Virus record (IMG/VR): IMGVR_UViG_3300042934_000088
Location: 1-25,471 of that record
Strand: one strand, 5' to 3'
Source: a virus
Length of the DNA stretch: 25,471 nt
Positions 711 to 25,471 of this stretch are shown piece by piece; positions within the stretch are counted from its first letter, which is position 1; each line of letters opens with the position of its first letter. Below the pieces are notes generated by a model. It was not told the origin of the DNA, did not search any database, and worked only from the letters and a program-made list of their open reading frames with translations. The position numbers and the translations under genes were made by a program.

Positions 711-995
711 TTATAACACCCCTGTATTTTTATTTGTAATTCTATCGATCCAACGTTTACTTTTATATTCGATTTGTAATTCGTCTTCATTGATATCTAA
801 CATCTTAGCGCAATGAACTACGTCCGTATATTCTTCTATGACACTAGCCCTAGCCTCTTCCTCAGTTACTGGTGTAGGATTCTCTCCCCTTAATATTCTA
901 GCTTGTTTTAAAGCGGCCTTAGCTAACTCTGTAGCTTCCTCAGCCAATTGTTCTAGTAATGATGGTTTACCAATTAATTTTTCTATATTACTCAT
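711..995 (-). CDS. MazG-like all-alpha nucleoside triphosphate pyrophosphohydrolase
   Basis: A 94-residue, almost wholly helical protein. The metal-binding pattern of all-alpha NTP pyrophosphohydrolases is visible: EEATE at residues 19-23 and EEYTD at 54-58, on two helices. Such enzymes hydrolyse (d)NTPs to monophosphates and pyrophosphate, and phages use them to shape nucleotide pools or lower alarmone levels. The length is that of a minimal single-domain member. An AGGGGATG ribosome binding site precedes the ATG. It lies just past the terminator of the lysis genes and one base before the kinase start, so the two are probably translated together. Substrate is unknown. Confidence 0.8.
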   Translation of the reverse strand: MSNIEKLIGKPSLLEQLAEEATELAKAALKQARILRGENPTPVTEEEARASVIEEYTDVVHCAKMLDINEDELQIEYKSKRWIDRITNKNTGVL

Positions 996-2966: not shown

Positions 2967-3290
2967 CTACATTATAGTTAATATTGTATTCTCTACACTA
3001 CCTATTCTTTGTTGGTCACTTGGTGAATGTATAGTTGGTGGGTATAATATAGCTTTTTCAGAATCAGTTAATAAACTTAAAGTATTATTTTCATATTTGT
3101 AGTTATACTTTCCAAACATATCCATTAACCCATTTTCTAGATAATTCCCTTGTGCATGAGCATATTTATCTCCTTGACCTTCATCTACGCATATCCACCC
3201 TATAATGTCAGTTAGAAAAATACCACTATTTATATTTATAACTACATTTTTGTCATTAATTTTTATGTATACCTTTATATTTTCTTCCAT
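2967..3290 (-). CDS. Tail-fibre-associated protein, second copy
   Basis: A 107-residue paralogue of the protein at 3444-3827. Both begin MEENIKVY and share the block DEGQGDKYAHAQGNY followed by a G-K-YNYK strand. In this copy the C-terminal region is shorter and different (ending SVENTILTIM). The ATG at 3290 is chosen because GGAGG lies nine bases upstream; an in-frame TTG at 3305 would put that site inside the gene. Related proteins sit near fibre genes in Bacillota phages. A fibre-assembly or small baseplate role is inferred from position only. Confidence 0.75.
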   Translation of the reverse strand: MEENIKVYIKINDKNVVININSGIFLTDIIGWICVDEGQGDKYAHAQGNYLENGLMDMFGKYNYKYENNTLSLLTDSEKAILYPPTIHSPSDQQRIGSVENTILTIM

Positions 3291-13612: not shown

Positions 13613-13991
13613 TATTAACAACCTCCTCATATTTCACTGCTGGAACTATTCCATTAACAAATGATGTTGCTTCTTTAGCATCTGTTGCTAACAACATAAA
13701 TAGATCAGAGTAAGCTTCAGTTTGAGAAAACGCGATCTTTATTTCGTCGTTCTTAATAAAATGTTTACCATCTGCTGACTTTTCACCATAAGCTCCAAGT
13801 ACGAGATCTTTGAATATTATAATGATAGTTGCTGGATCTTTAGATGCTATTACTTTATTTATCTTCTCTGATAATCCACCAACGGTACCCATTTCCATTT
13901 CCATTACTTCAGCCTTTGTAAGATTGAAGTAAAAGTCCTCAGTTCTTTCCACCCCATTATAATCGGTATATGATATTGTCTTTTTTAACAT
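13590..13991 (-). CDS. Tail assembly chaperone
   Basis: A 133-residue protein from ATG 13991, supported by GGGAGG upstream; a longer frame exists but lacks a site. It begins MLKKTISYTDYNGVERTEDF, a beta hairpin with tail-tube-like character, and then has helices (KAEVMEMEMGTVGGLSEKI, then TIIIIFKDLVLGAYG and FSQTEAYSDLFMLLA). This matches the Gp13/gpG-type tail chaperones of Bacillota siphoviruses, which hold the tape measure before tube polymerisation. It lies between the major tail gene and the tape measure, as expected. No classical slippery heptamer is seen in the right frame at its end, and the next gene has its own ribosome binding site. Confidence 0.8.
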   Translation of the reverse strand: MLKKTISYTDYNGVERTEDFYFNLTKAEVMEMEMGTVGGLSEKINKVIASKDPATIIIIFKDLVLGAYGEKSADGKHFIKNDEIKIAFSQTEAYSDLFMLLATDAKEATSFVNGIVPAVKYEEVVNNEKVSMS

Positions 13992-13993
13992 AA

Positions 13994-14209
13994 TTATTCC
14001 TCCCTTGCTATTGATGCATTTGCCCACATAGATGTTTCCTCGAGTTTAGTTATAGCTAATGCTCGTTCTCTACTATTAGGACATAATTCATTTATTAGAT
14101 ATGCTAATTCTTTAGCTTTTTCTCTTAACTGATTGTATCTCTCTGGTTGACCAGCCTTAGGAGCATGATATTTAAAATTATTTTCTATCTGTTCTATTGG
14201 AGTTTTCAT
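13994..14209 (-). CDS. acb2: Acb2-family anti-CBASS cyclic-nucleotide sponge
   Basis: A 71-residue helical protein matching the Acb2 (T4 Vs.4-like, Acb2/Tad1 hairpin) family. The pattern FKYHAPKAGQPERY (12-25), AKELAYLIN (32-40), ELCPNSRERALAITKLEE (41-58) and MWANASIARE (61-70) is family-diagnostic. Known members form hexamers that bind 3',3'-cGAMP and related cyclic di- or trinucleotides, so CBASS effectors are not activated; that activity here is inferred from homology. The length is that of a complete minimal Acb2. It is translated from an AGGTGG site two bases after the stop of the crAss001_48-like gene, inside the late tail operon. Confidence 0.88.
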   Translation of the reverse strand: MKTPIEQIENNFKYHAPKAGQPERYNQLREKAKELAYLINELCPNSRERALAITKLEETSMWANASIAREE

Positions 14210-24129: not shown

Positions 24130-24543
24130 CTATTTCCAAGGACAAGTATCTCCTCTACTTCTATCAGTTATTATATTTGGAGATTTATCACCATAGTGAA
24201 TCGCATTGTGCGTTCGTAAACATGTGGCTATTAAATAATCTGGATTTATTAAATAATCCGTATTATCTAATATGTCTTCTTTTGAAATAGGATTCATGTG
24301 ATGAATTATTATGTTCTTATAAATTTCATAACCGTCTAATCCGAGATCACATCCTAGATCACGAATTATAATATCTCTCCTAGTGTCTAACCATATTTGA
24401 GATTTATAGAATACCTGGTTTAAGTATCTATCGAATCCAAATGTTAAGTCTGAAACTCTACCATTAAGTTTTAGATACTCAAATCTTTCATCAAAAGTTT
24501 TAAAATTCATTAACTCATTATATGTCCGAATTATTGTTCCCAC
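24130..24543 (-). CDS. HNH endonuclease of the packaging module
   Basis: A 137-residue HNH nuclease with a GTG start at 24543, behind GAGGAG, inside the end of the small-terminase gene (26-base overlap). The beta-alpha-metal core is visible: IIIRDLGCDLGLDGYEI (about 59-75), the HH of IIIHHMNPI (about 80-88), and the final LRTHNAIHYG (about 113-122), where N and H complete the site. In cos phages with 3' overhangs, HNH proteins beside terminase genes are needed for cos cleavage; this is established for HK97 gp74 and relatives. The position and the CCCCGGGG palindrome upstream support such a role. A free-standing homing function is less likely, given this conserved placement. Confidence 0.88.
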   Translation of the reverse strand: MGTIIRTYNELMNFKTFDERFEYLKLNGRVSDLTFGFDRYLNQVFYKSQIWLDTRRDIIIRDLGCDLGLDGYEIYKNIIIHHMNPISKEDILDNTDYLINPDYLIATCLRTHNAIHYGDKSPNIITDRSRGDTCPWK

Positions 24544-24841
24544 TGTAACTCCTCATCGCCGCTAAGGCGTTTGTATATAATTCTTCTATTACTTTTCCAG
24601 ATTTAATAGCTTCTGTTTTAGCTGTTATTAAGTCTAAGTTTTTCGCCAACGTTTGCTTCTCTAACATGCTAGTTGTAGATCCTAATTTTAGGAAGTGTGA
24701 TATTACTTGTGACGATGCAGAACCTTCCTTTAATTGTTTCTCGGCCAAATCGATGGCCAATGATATTAATTGATTTTCTCTAGATTCAGGTGTTAAACCA
24801 GGTCTAGACTTTCCTATACCTTTAGATGTATTCTTGGCCAC
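24518..24841 (-). CDS. Terminase small subunit (putative)
   Basis: A 107-residue protein starting at GTG 24841 with AAAGGAG seven bases upstream. The N-terminus, KGIGKSRPGLTPESRENQL, followed by SLAIDLAEKQLKEGSASSQV and SHFLKLGS, is a pattern seen directly before HNH and TerL genes of Bacillota phages and usually annotated as the small terminase or a DNA-binding packaging protein. The C-terminal half is a charged helix ending LYTNALAAMRSYSG. It should recognise the packaging site and feed TerL. It overlaps the HNH start by 26 bases. The assignment rests on position and recall of the family. Confidence 0.75.
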   Translation of the reverse strand: MAKNTSKGIGKSRPGLTPESRENQLISLAIDLAEKQLKEGSASSQVISHFLKLGSTTSMLEKQTLAKNLDLITAKTEAIKSGKVIEELYTNALAAMRSYSGNNNSDI

Positions 24842-24873: not shown

Positions 24874-25290
24874 TTATCTTTTAATCATATTCATTTCAGC
24901 TAGATAATTAGCTCCAACCAAACTAGCTGCTGAGCCAATAGTTAATAGACCTATCTTTAACATGTTCTTTTTAGTTTCTCTTTTGCCATATTCTATACGG
25001 GCATCATCTATGGTCTTTAAATCATCACTATTAAAATTCCAAGTTTTACCAGTTTGTTTTCTTACTACTTTACCAGACATCACATTCTTATAAGCTTCTT
25101 TTTGGATTGATCTTTCATATTTAGAATAATGCTTGTTTGATTCTCTTTTAGTATCTTCGTTTTGGAACTTAACTGTGTTTATTGCATCTTTCTTTAACAT
25201 TTTTTTATTGTTTTCAAAAGTAGATTGTCCTTTACCCCACTTCATACCTTTGATTCCAAAGTGACATAATTCTGTATTATATATTTGCAT
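24874..25290 (-). CDS. HFGIKGMKWG-tagged protein with C-terminal hydrophobic helix, first gene of the operon
   Basis: A 138-residue protein opening with MQIYNTELCHFGIKGMKWGK; its first 19 residues nearly equal those of the ADP-ribosyltransferase-like protein. The middle is highly charged and helical (DTKRESNKHYSKYERSIQKE), with TWNFNSDDLKTIDDARIEYG at about 83-102. The C-terminus (LKIGLLTIGSAASLVGANYL, about 111-130) is a likely membrane helix. No catalytic motif is seen. An AGGTGA site precedes ATG 25290. It is the first gene after the long hairpin and cos-like region, so it is probably among the first late genes transcribed. No function is known. Confidence 0.75.
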   Translation of the reverse strand: MQIYNTELCHFGIKGMKWGKGQSTFENNKKMLKKDAINTVKFQNEDTKRESNKHYSKYERSIQKEAYKNVMSGKVVRKQTGKTWNFNSDDLKTIDDARIEYGKRETKKNMLKIGLLTIGSAASLVGANYLAEMNMIKR

Positions 25291-25315: not shown

Positions 25316-25428
25316 TTTTCAGAGATATCTTTTAAACACGCCTAGGGGTGTACAATATGTGAGAATCGAAAGGGAGTAGCGATTATTATGGTTATTGTCT
25401 AGGCGCGTTTAAAAGACATCTCTGAAAA
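25316..25428 (-). repeat. 113-base hairpin with 30-bp inverted-repeat arms upstream of the packaging genes
   Basis: Arms at 25316-25345 and 25399-25428 match at 28 of 30 positions. On the minus (gene) strand both differences, at 25327 and 25338, are U-G wobbles; on the plus strand they are A-C mismatches, which favours a minus-strand RNA. Inside are further pairs: ACAATA (25352-25357) with TATTGT (25393-25398), and AATCG (25364-25368) with CGATT (25380-25384). The 11-base apical loop is at 25369-25379. No T-run follows on either strand, so it is not a typical terminator. It would lie in the 5' leader of the first late gene. Confidence 0.85.
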
Positions 25429-25429
25429 T

Positions 25430-25462
25430 GTACCCCCGGGGATTTTTTAGGGAGGCACCCGA
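25430..25462. other. Candidate cos (DNA end/cutting) region
   Basis: Just upstream of the HNH/terminase cluster is an 8-base perfect palindrome, CCCCGGGG, at 25434-25441 in an otherwise AT-rich genome. It sits in a longer GC-rich patch, ACCCCCGGGGATTTTTTAGG then GAGGCACCC. GC-rich palindromic cut sites with short 3' overhangs are typical of cos phages whose terminase works with an HNH protein. This is inference from composition and place; the actual cut is not visible. Confidence 0.45.
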
Positions 25463-25471
25463 TCAAATAGG

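Follow-up and report, generated by a model that had tools for sequence, protein, structure and literature searches.

A conserved stem-loop at the head of phage packaging operons is a probable multi-target antisense RNA directed at ribosome-binding sites

The DNA analyzed here, referred to as the window, is a 25,471-nt IMG/VR fragment in which a packaging operon on the minus strand is headed by a long hairpin next to a cos-like sequence. The features of this region are as follows.

25429..25471, minus strand: cos-like end TTTGATCGGGTGCCT / CCCTAAAAAATCCCCGGGGG, a candidate cos
25316..25428, minus strand (the gene strand): whole hairpin element, 113 nt, in the leader of the packaging operon
25399..25428, minus strand: stem, 5' arm as read on the gene strand, TTTTCAGAGATGTCTTTTAAACGCGCCTAG, 30 nt
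25346..25398, minus strand: loop of 53 nt, containing an inner 5-bp hairpin in the predicted fold
25368..25376, minus strand: putative antisense (anti-Shine-Dalgarno) part of the loop, CTCCCTTTC, for which the family consensus is CTCCTTTC
25316..25345, minus strand: stem, 3' arm as read on the gene strand, CTAGGCGTGTTTAAAAGATATCTCTGAAAA, 30 nt
24874..25290, minus strand: DUF7211 (HFGIKGMKWG) gene, between the hairpin and the small terminase gene in the window's phage
24518..24841, minus strand: putative small terminase (TerS) gene, phrog_4259, overlapping the HNH gene
24130..24543, minus strand: HNH endonuclease gene, phrog_4321, part of the packaging module

Related contigs repeatedly started at CCCTAAAAA (window 25452). 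In most relatives, TerS followed the hairpin directly, with no DUF7211 gene between the two. The HFGIKGMKWG/R motif of DUF7211 was seen in four separate window proteins (25290-24874, 23758-22871, 22853-22317, and 20568-20077, minus strand). All four lie in the packaging/head region, three carry the motif near the N terminus, and it appears as a shared tag on four otherwise unlike proteins.

The hairpin in the window is real. The original prediction had described 30-base arms whose two differences are G-U pairs on the minus strand, and the arms were indeed found to form 28 Watson-Crick and two G-U pairs on that strand. The inner pairs that it had proposed as extensions of the rod, AATCG/CGATT (25364-25368 / 25380-25384) and ACAATA/TATTGT (25352-25357 / 25393-25398), were both present in the predicted minus-strand fold. 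The energy of this fold was -52.6 kcal/mol compared to -21.5 +/- 3.6 for shuffled sequences (z = -8.65), and the plus strand lay less far beyond its own shuffles (z = -5.98). A covariance model of the element (R1), for which the window's phage was one of the 35 training rows, matched window positions 25322-25422 with 50.2 bits on the minus strand and 33.4 bits on the plus strand. No terminator-like site, that is, a stem followed by a T-run, was found at the hairpin, in agreement with the earlier reading. A comparison of the window to all 4227 models of Rfam 15, including any c4 model, gave no match at the gathering threshold, and the sole match among the relatives, at an E value of 1 or below, was to SCARNA7, at chance level, in seven of them. 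A phi29-type packaging RNA was not matched through Rfam in either the window or the relatives.

A search for the arm pattern matched one 52,452-nt IMG/VR contig (G001), which is identical to the window over the first 22,465 nt. Relatives were gathered with protein searches for the putative TerS (phrog_4259) and HNH (phrog_4321), which returned approximately 120 viral loci, loci in cellular genomes, mostly of Lachnospiraceae and other Clostridia, and cultured phages. When inverted repeats were sought in a strand-symmetric manner, arms with a score of 17 or more lay upstream of HNH in 118 of 152 loci, compared to 7 of 182 for an equal downstream control stretch. Ahead of the TerS/HNH genes, the element occurred in phages of Clostridia, Lactococcus, Arthrobacter (Gordon, Circum, StarLord, Tokki, Zeina, and Tenno), Microbacterium (Camille), Curtobacterium (Yotsuba and AddiRose, the latter with arms that lack the loop motif), and Bifidobacterium (BitterVaud1); the Lactococcus phages included P078 and CHPC971. 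It was absent from Streptomyces phages Bing, ClubPenguin, and HotFries, Gordonia phages Odesza and Chikenjars, and Rhodococcus phage ReqiPepy6; the Streptomyces and Gordonia phages are cases in which the same terminase genes occur without it. In nearly all phage genomes, R1 detected the element once. Among bacteria, it detected single copies in 5 of 200 genomes of one family, and TerS and HNH lay directly behind the element in all five. A near match in fecal record MT835727 turned out to be unrelated sequence. No description of such an element was found in a search of the open-access literature. The hairpin is a member of a widespread and apparently undescribed family of phage RNA stem-loops that head the DNA-packaging operon.

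The stem has changed in sequence while its pairing has been retained. In 35 aligned elements, double (compensatory) changes were present at all 27 of 27 stem pairs and 96.3% of the cells were paired, with 229 double-change cells compared to 70 in shuffled alignments and 19 to 53 in slid ones. MAFFT misaligned the shifted loop motif of the window in this alignment (A2), and the stem statistics were unaffected. Arm sequences likewise diverged with pairing kept across 108 non-redundant copies, and stem length in the family ranged from 25 to 38 bp. Such conserved secondary structure with compensatory changes is expected of a trans-acting antisense RNA that targets ribosome-binding sites (RBSs). 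The two wobble pairs of the window are by themselves little proof of selection on RNA, because any transition gives G-U on one of the strands and A-C on its complement. On the gene strand, a strand-symmetric search gave 310 G-U versus 83 A-C among the non-Watson-Crick arm pairs of the 108 non-redundant hairpins (P = 6.5e-32), and the G-U excess was found in 81 loci versus 13. Given this ratio, the selection for gene-strand RNA pairing that had been proposed from the window holds for the family. Strand-biased mutation should not produce this asymmetry, since C-to-T and T-to-C fluxes balance at compositional equilibrium. Selection most likely acts on a single gene-strand molecule, an RNA. The G-U asymmetry alone could also fit a single-stranded DNA hairpin, and the loop findings described below favor RNA.

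The loops contained the exact motif CTCCTTTC in 46 of 62 cases, compared to 0.45 expected from shuffled loops, and any anti-Shine-Dalgarno form in 55 of 62 and 95 of 108. The unpaired probability of the motif was 0.73 versus 0.50 for the remaining loop. It often sits in a small apical hairpin, which in the window is the AATCG/CGATT stem. Two other readings of the loop were tried and rejected. Its complement reads as a Shine-Dalgarno (SD) sequence and might have belonged to a minus-strand mini-ORF; start codons behind it were at approximately the chance level (29 of 75), compared to 49 of 63 for true downstream SDs. The loop (CTC-CTTTC-AA) was also compared to boxA, GCTCTTTAA, and a boxA-like antitermination site was set aside because ACCTCCT variants and the co-variation with RBSs are better explained by antisense pairing.

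We examined loop complementarity to RBSs of the same phage in 24 whole genomes, which were those of Gordon and Camille and 22 IMG/VR genomes carrying the element. Gordon and Camille, whose genomes are complete, have a loop sequence, CTCCTTTCAAGAG(CG), that perfectly complements several RBSs over 12 to 15 nt, and the matched genes lie just past the structural operon. The loops of nearly all the IMG/VR phages complemented RBSs of their own genome over 11 to 18 nt. For example, TGAAAGGAGAAGAGAAA-type sites complementary to the phage's own loop preceded five genes in G012, and the matching RBSs were GAAAGGAGCGATATAAAT in G027 and TGACGAAAGGAGAAC in G010. When complements of at least 12 nt were collected genome-wide on the transcribed strand, 107 of 112 directly preceded a start codon. 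The controls gave 2 complements on the opposite strand, 4 with the segment reversed, and 14 with the remainder of the loops.

This complementarity was specific to each phage. There were 144 RBSs with a complement of at least 11 nt to the native loop, compared to 67.0 +/- 11.3 when loops were swapped (100,000 permutations, maximum 119), and the summed best match lengths were 336 for native versus 275 +/- 7 for swapped loops. Duplex energies concurred, with a mean residual of -2.04 and a permutation standard deviation of 0.285. When the flanks of each loop were shuffled, a treatment that keeps both base composition and the CTCCTTTC core, the number of such RBSs was 49.6 +/- 10.5 (maximum 79), and 22 of the 24 phages exceeded their own flank-shuffled controls. 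Four phages new to the analysis were then used as an out-of-sample prediction, and all agreed with it: Lactococcus phage P078 matched over 18 nt at best (9.9 with shuffled flanks) and had five sites versus 0.6, Circum had five sites versus 0.4, Yotsuba had three sites versus 0.4, and the best match in Zeina was 13 nt versus 9.9. Loop and RBSs have also changed together. In a sister of the window's phage (L005/G002), the loop is CCCCTTTCAAA and the RBSs are TTTGAAAGGGG, a match of 11 nt; in the window's lineage, orthologous sites have GAAAGGGG instead of GAAAGGAG and the loop has shifted to CTCCCTTTC. An exposed segment that is complementary to its target RBSs and co-varies with them is what an antisense RNA should display, although this is weak for the window's own phage.

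In that phage, loop segment CTCCCTTTC pairs with UUGAAAGGGG RBSs. It was one of the 2 of 24 phages whose exact matches did not exceed those with shuffled flanks. Its two best pairings, each of 10 bp with two G-U pairs, were at the RBSs of a phrog_15866 gene and of a small membrane gene; a pairing of 8 bp with a phrog_4079 gene ranked third. Sites one and three belong to target families that recur elsewhere, and a rank test over all family genes was not significant (P = 0.60). One further site in the window is the following.

14000..14006, minus strand: AAGGGAG, possible weak target, a 7-nt complement of the loop, in the RBS of a tail-assembly-chaperone-like gene with its start codon at 13991

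The ortholog of this site is a strong target in seven other phages. The window's phage alone is statistically unconvincing, and the case rests on the family.

The targets lie mostly more than 27 kb from the hairpin. Matches were found at 113 of 1,279 sites there versus 31 of 874 in the structural half, a preference for the non-structural half with an odds ratio of 2.6 (P = 7e-7), to which the tail-assembly chaperone is a recurrent exception. The recurrent target families were phrog_2152 (11 phages), phrog_15866 (7 phages), and phrog_4282 (7 phages), followed by phrog_18141, phrog_4079, and the single-strand-annealing protein (phrog_4787). PHROG gives no function for phrog_4282, which we read from its position and size as putatively tail-assembly-chaperone-like. 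Native loops were better than swapped loops for the chaperone, phrog_2152, phrog_15866, and annealing-protein RBSs (P <= 0.0007), and nothing significant was measured for the TerS, HNH, TerL, portal, and tape measure RBSs. This per-family test is biased upward, as families were chosen from native matches, and a capsid control reached P = 0.02; the 100,000-permutation swap, the flank shuffle, and the four-phage prediction are free of this bias. The early or late status of the targets was read from map position only. The chaperone is a late gene, which counts against the explanation given below.

Taken together, these results make it probable that the hairpin is a trans-acting, multi-target antisense RNA in the late packaging leader that occludes RBSs of its own phage. 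From the structure, strand, motif, and phage-specific loop-to-RBS complementarity computed here, we infer transcription, processing, repression by pairing, and timing. The stem of 25 to 38 bp, free in sequence but not in pairing, would hold up the loop, and the exposed CTCCTTTC-centered segment would pair with the SD region and the phage-specific flanks of a set of genes, mainly the membrane and unknown genes that start the non-structural half, the single-strand-annealing protein, and the tail-assembly chaperone. Once late transcription starts, leader RNA would accumulate, possibly after release by a double-strand RNase cut at the long stem, and its pairing with RBSs would block initiation or trigger mRNA decay, so that target output would be lowered late in infection. 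Of the roles first suggested for the hairpin, a processed small RNA comes closest to this outcome: the loop is antisense to many RBSs, and processing is the conjectural part. For the family as a whole, we lean somewhat toward a post-transcriptional early-to-late switch, in which the packaging leader would shut off an early/middle gene set and tune the tail chaperone through a shared extended SD code that is changed in concert with the loop in each lineage. Phage early-gene shut-off at late onset is usually explained by transcription factors. If true, such a genome-wide RNA switch would be common to phages of gut Clostridia, Lactococcus, and Actinobacteria, would yield a target list in cultured phages with tractable hosts, and would assign a regulon to the conserved, function-less families phrog_2152, phrog_15866, phrog_18141, and phrog_4079.

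Several other explanations were weighed against this one. Our first idea was cis pairing with the nearest RBS, a leader whose anti-SD loop would pair with the SD of TerS, the first gene of its own operon, and restrain the packaging genes. The distance from the element to the next start codon, 18 to 108 nt in nearly all loci, suits such a leader, as do the strength of the TerS SDs (-14.0 versus -11.3 kcal for other genes) and a loop core that is complementary to any SD. We nevertheless regard it as unlikely, since native loops were no better than swapped loops for TerS (P = 0.52 and 0.56), the actinophage TerS SDs are AAGGAGGTGA and yet the loops keep CTCCTTTCAAGAG, and other genes separate the hairpin from TerS in the window, Tenno, and the Lactococcus phages.

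Pairing alone gives no direction, and the RNA might instead stabilize the mRNAs whose RBSs it pairs with, or one RNA with so many targets could be titrated by them as by a sponge. Known base-pairing RNAs usually prevent initiation when they lie over an SD, which makes a positive or sponge role decidedly unlikely. The c4 antisense RNA of phages P1 and P7, which carries its complementary sequence in loops and covers an RBS, is one example (PMC12197685). A long, near-perfect RNA stem that lacks a T-run and is free to change in sequence would also serve as an RNase III processing signal or a 5' stabilizer of the late mRNA. As a role that excludes antisense pairing this is improbable, since it leaves both the invariant loop motif and the phage-specific loop-RBS complementarity unexplained; it could be true alongside an antisense role.

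The DNA site next to cos that the original prediction had listed, either an inverted-repeat terminase site (cosB-like) or a cruciform, fared poorly. The element is usually 25 to 90 nt from the conserved cos-like sequence, but several isolates, such as Gordon, Camille, Yotsuba, and AddiRose, have it 0.4 to 2.4 kb from the left end instead of at a fixed position. In Camille and the Curtobacterium phages it is 1.9 to 2.4 kb from the cos/left end, just before or near TerS, and in several isolates genes intervene between cos and the element or between the element and TerS. With the 310:83 strand asymmetry and a loop segment that tracks RBSs elsewhere in the genome, a DNA element is very improbable. 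A CBASS-activating structured RNA, also raised originally, is barely credible: the hairpin is close to the terminase genes and the family phage Yotsuba encodes a protein (gp61; L293 37346-37843) annotated as cyclic-nucleotide sequestering, but the staphylococcal phage cabRNAs come from within terS/terL and an isolated stem or dsRNA was inactive (PMC10686824), the element lies upstream of TerS and outside both genes, and no window protein scanned matched the Acb2 family that had been said to be present. The only small window ORF seen as a candidate for that Acb2 (711-995, minus strand, 94 aa) had a PHROGs match to MazG-type NTP-pyrophosphohydrolases and no Acb2 match in Pfam.

An antisense role can be set beside that of known RNAs. 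The cabRNAs are likewise structured RNAs of the terminase region, but they are defined by cyclase activation, with no RBS pairing as described. Like c4, the hairpin family would be a phage-encoded antisense RNA with a loop-borne complement that covers RBSs. It differs in being a long single stem without an Rfam match and in targeting many RBSs genome-wide with no preference for adjacent genes, whereas c4 controls ant; for TerS, the neighboring downstream gene, there was no native-over-swapped signal. The sar RNA of P22 and the OOP RNA of lambda are phage antisense RNAs on phage mRNAs as well, but each acts on one mRNA (ant and cII, respectively), compared to the imperfect, SD-centered pairing with multiple targets seen here. 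In the C-rich-loop sRNAs of Gram-positive bacteria, such as RNAIII and the Rsa RNAs, a pyrimidine-rich loop pairs with the SDs of several mRNAs. The exposed loop of the hairpin family is similar, but those sRNAs are host encoded, lie outside a phage packaging leader, and lack a covariation-conserved closing stem of 25 to 38 bp. VpdS of VP882 and PreS of lambda are also phage-encoded, trans-acting sRNAs; they are Hfq dependent, have largely host targets, and are unlike the hairpin family in location and structure. The family most likely works like RBS-directed antisense RNAs such as c4 and the SD-binding sRNAs, and in this analysis it matched no described family.

Additional observations were made in individual phages. 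A protein of approximately 900 to 990 aa is encoded at the right genome end (L291 46633-49599, which is P078 gp77; L213 46785-49562; L292 46956-49631; L293 46934-49615; and L294 46877-49600). It is annotated as "RNA-dependent RNA polymerase" in P078 and as HTH or hypothetical elsewhere, and it might be a phage RNA polymerase that starts late transcription. The P078 loop (L135 38-194) has two anti-SD motifs, one of which matches several early-region RBSs over up to 18 nt. The best match of the second, 10 nt at the gp15 RBS, was not significant compared to shuffled flanks and is suggestive only; gp15 starts with MFKK, occupies the map position of the chaperone in other phages, and is likely the tail chaperone. 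The element occurs twice in phage G004, with a copy close to the contig end (L223 50-183) and another just before TerS (3151-3287). In Arthrobacter phages, additional long hairpins separate cos from the main element (L132 170-271; L134 168-273; L207 45-143 and 147-250; and L209 42-170), mostly without an anti-SD loop, and the one in L209 has CCTCCT. In ClubPenguin (L130 1-105), which has no long hairpin, a segment of the TerS leader was seen by eye to complement the SD of its own TerS (CTTTCA / TGAAAG), which is possibly a different, cis solution.
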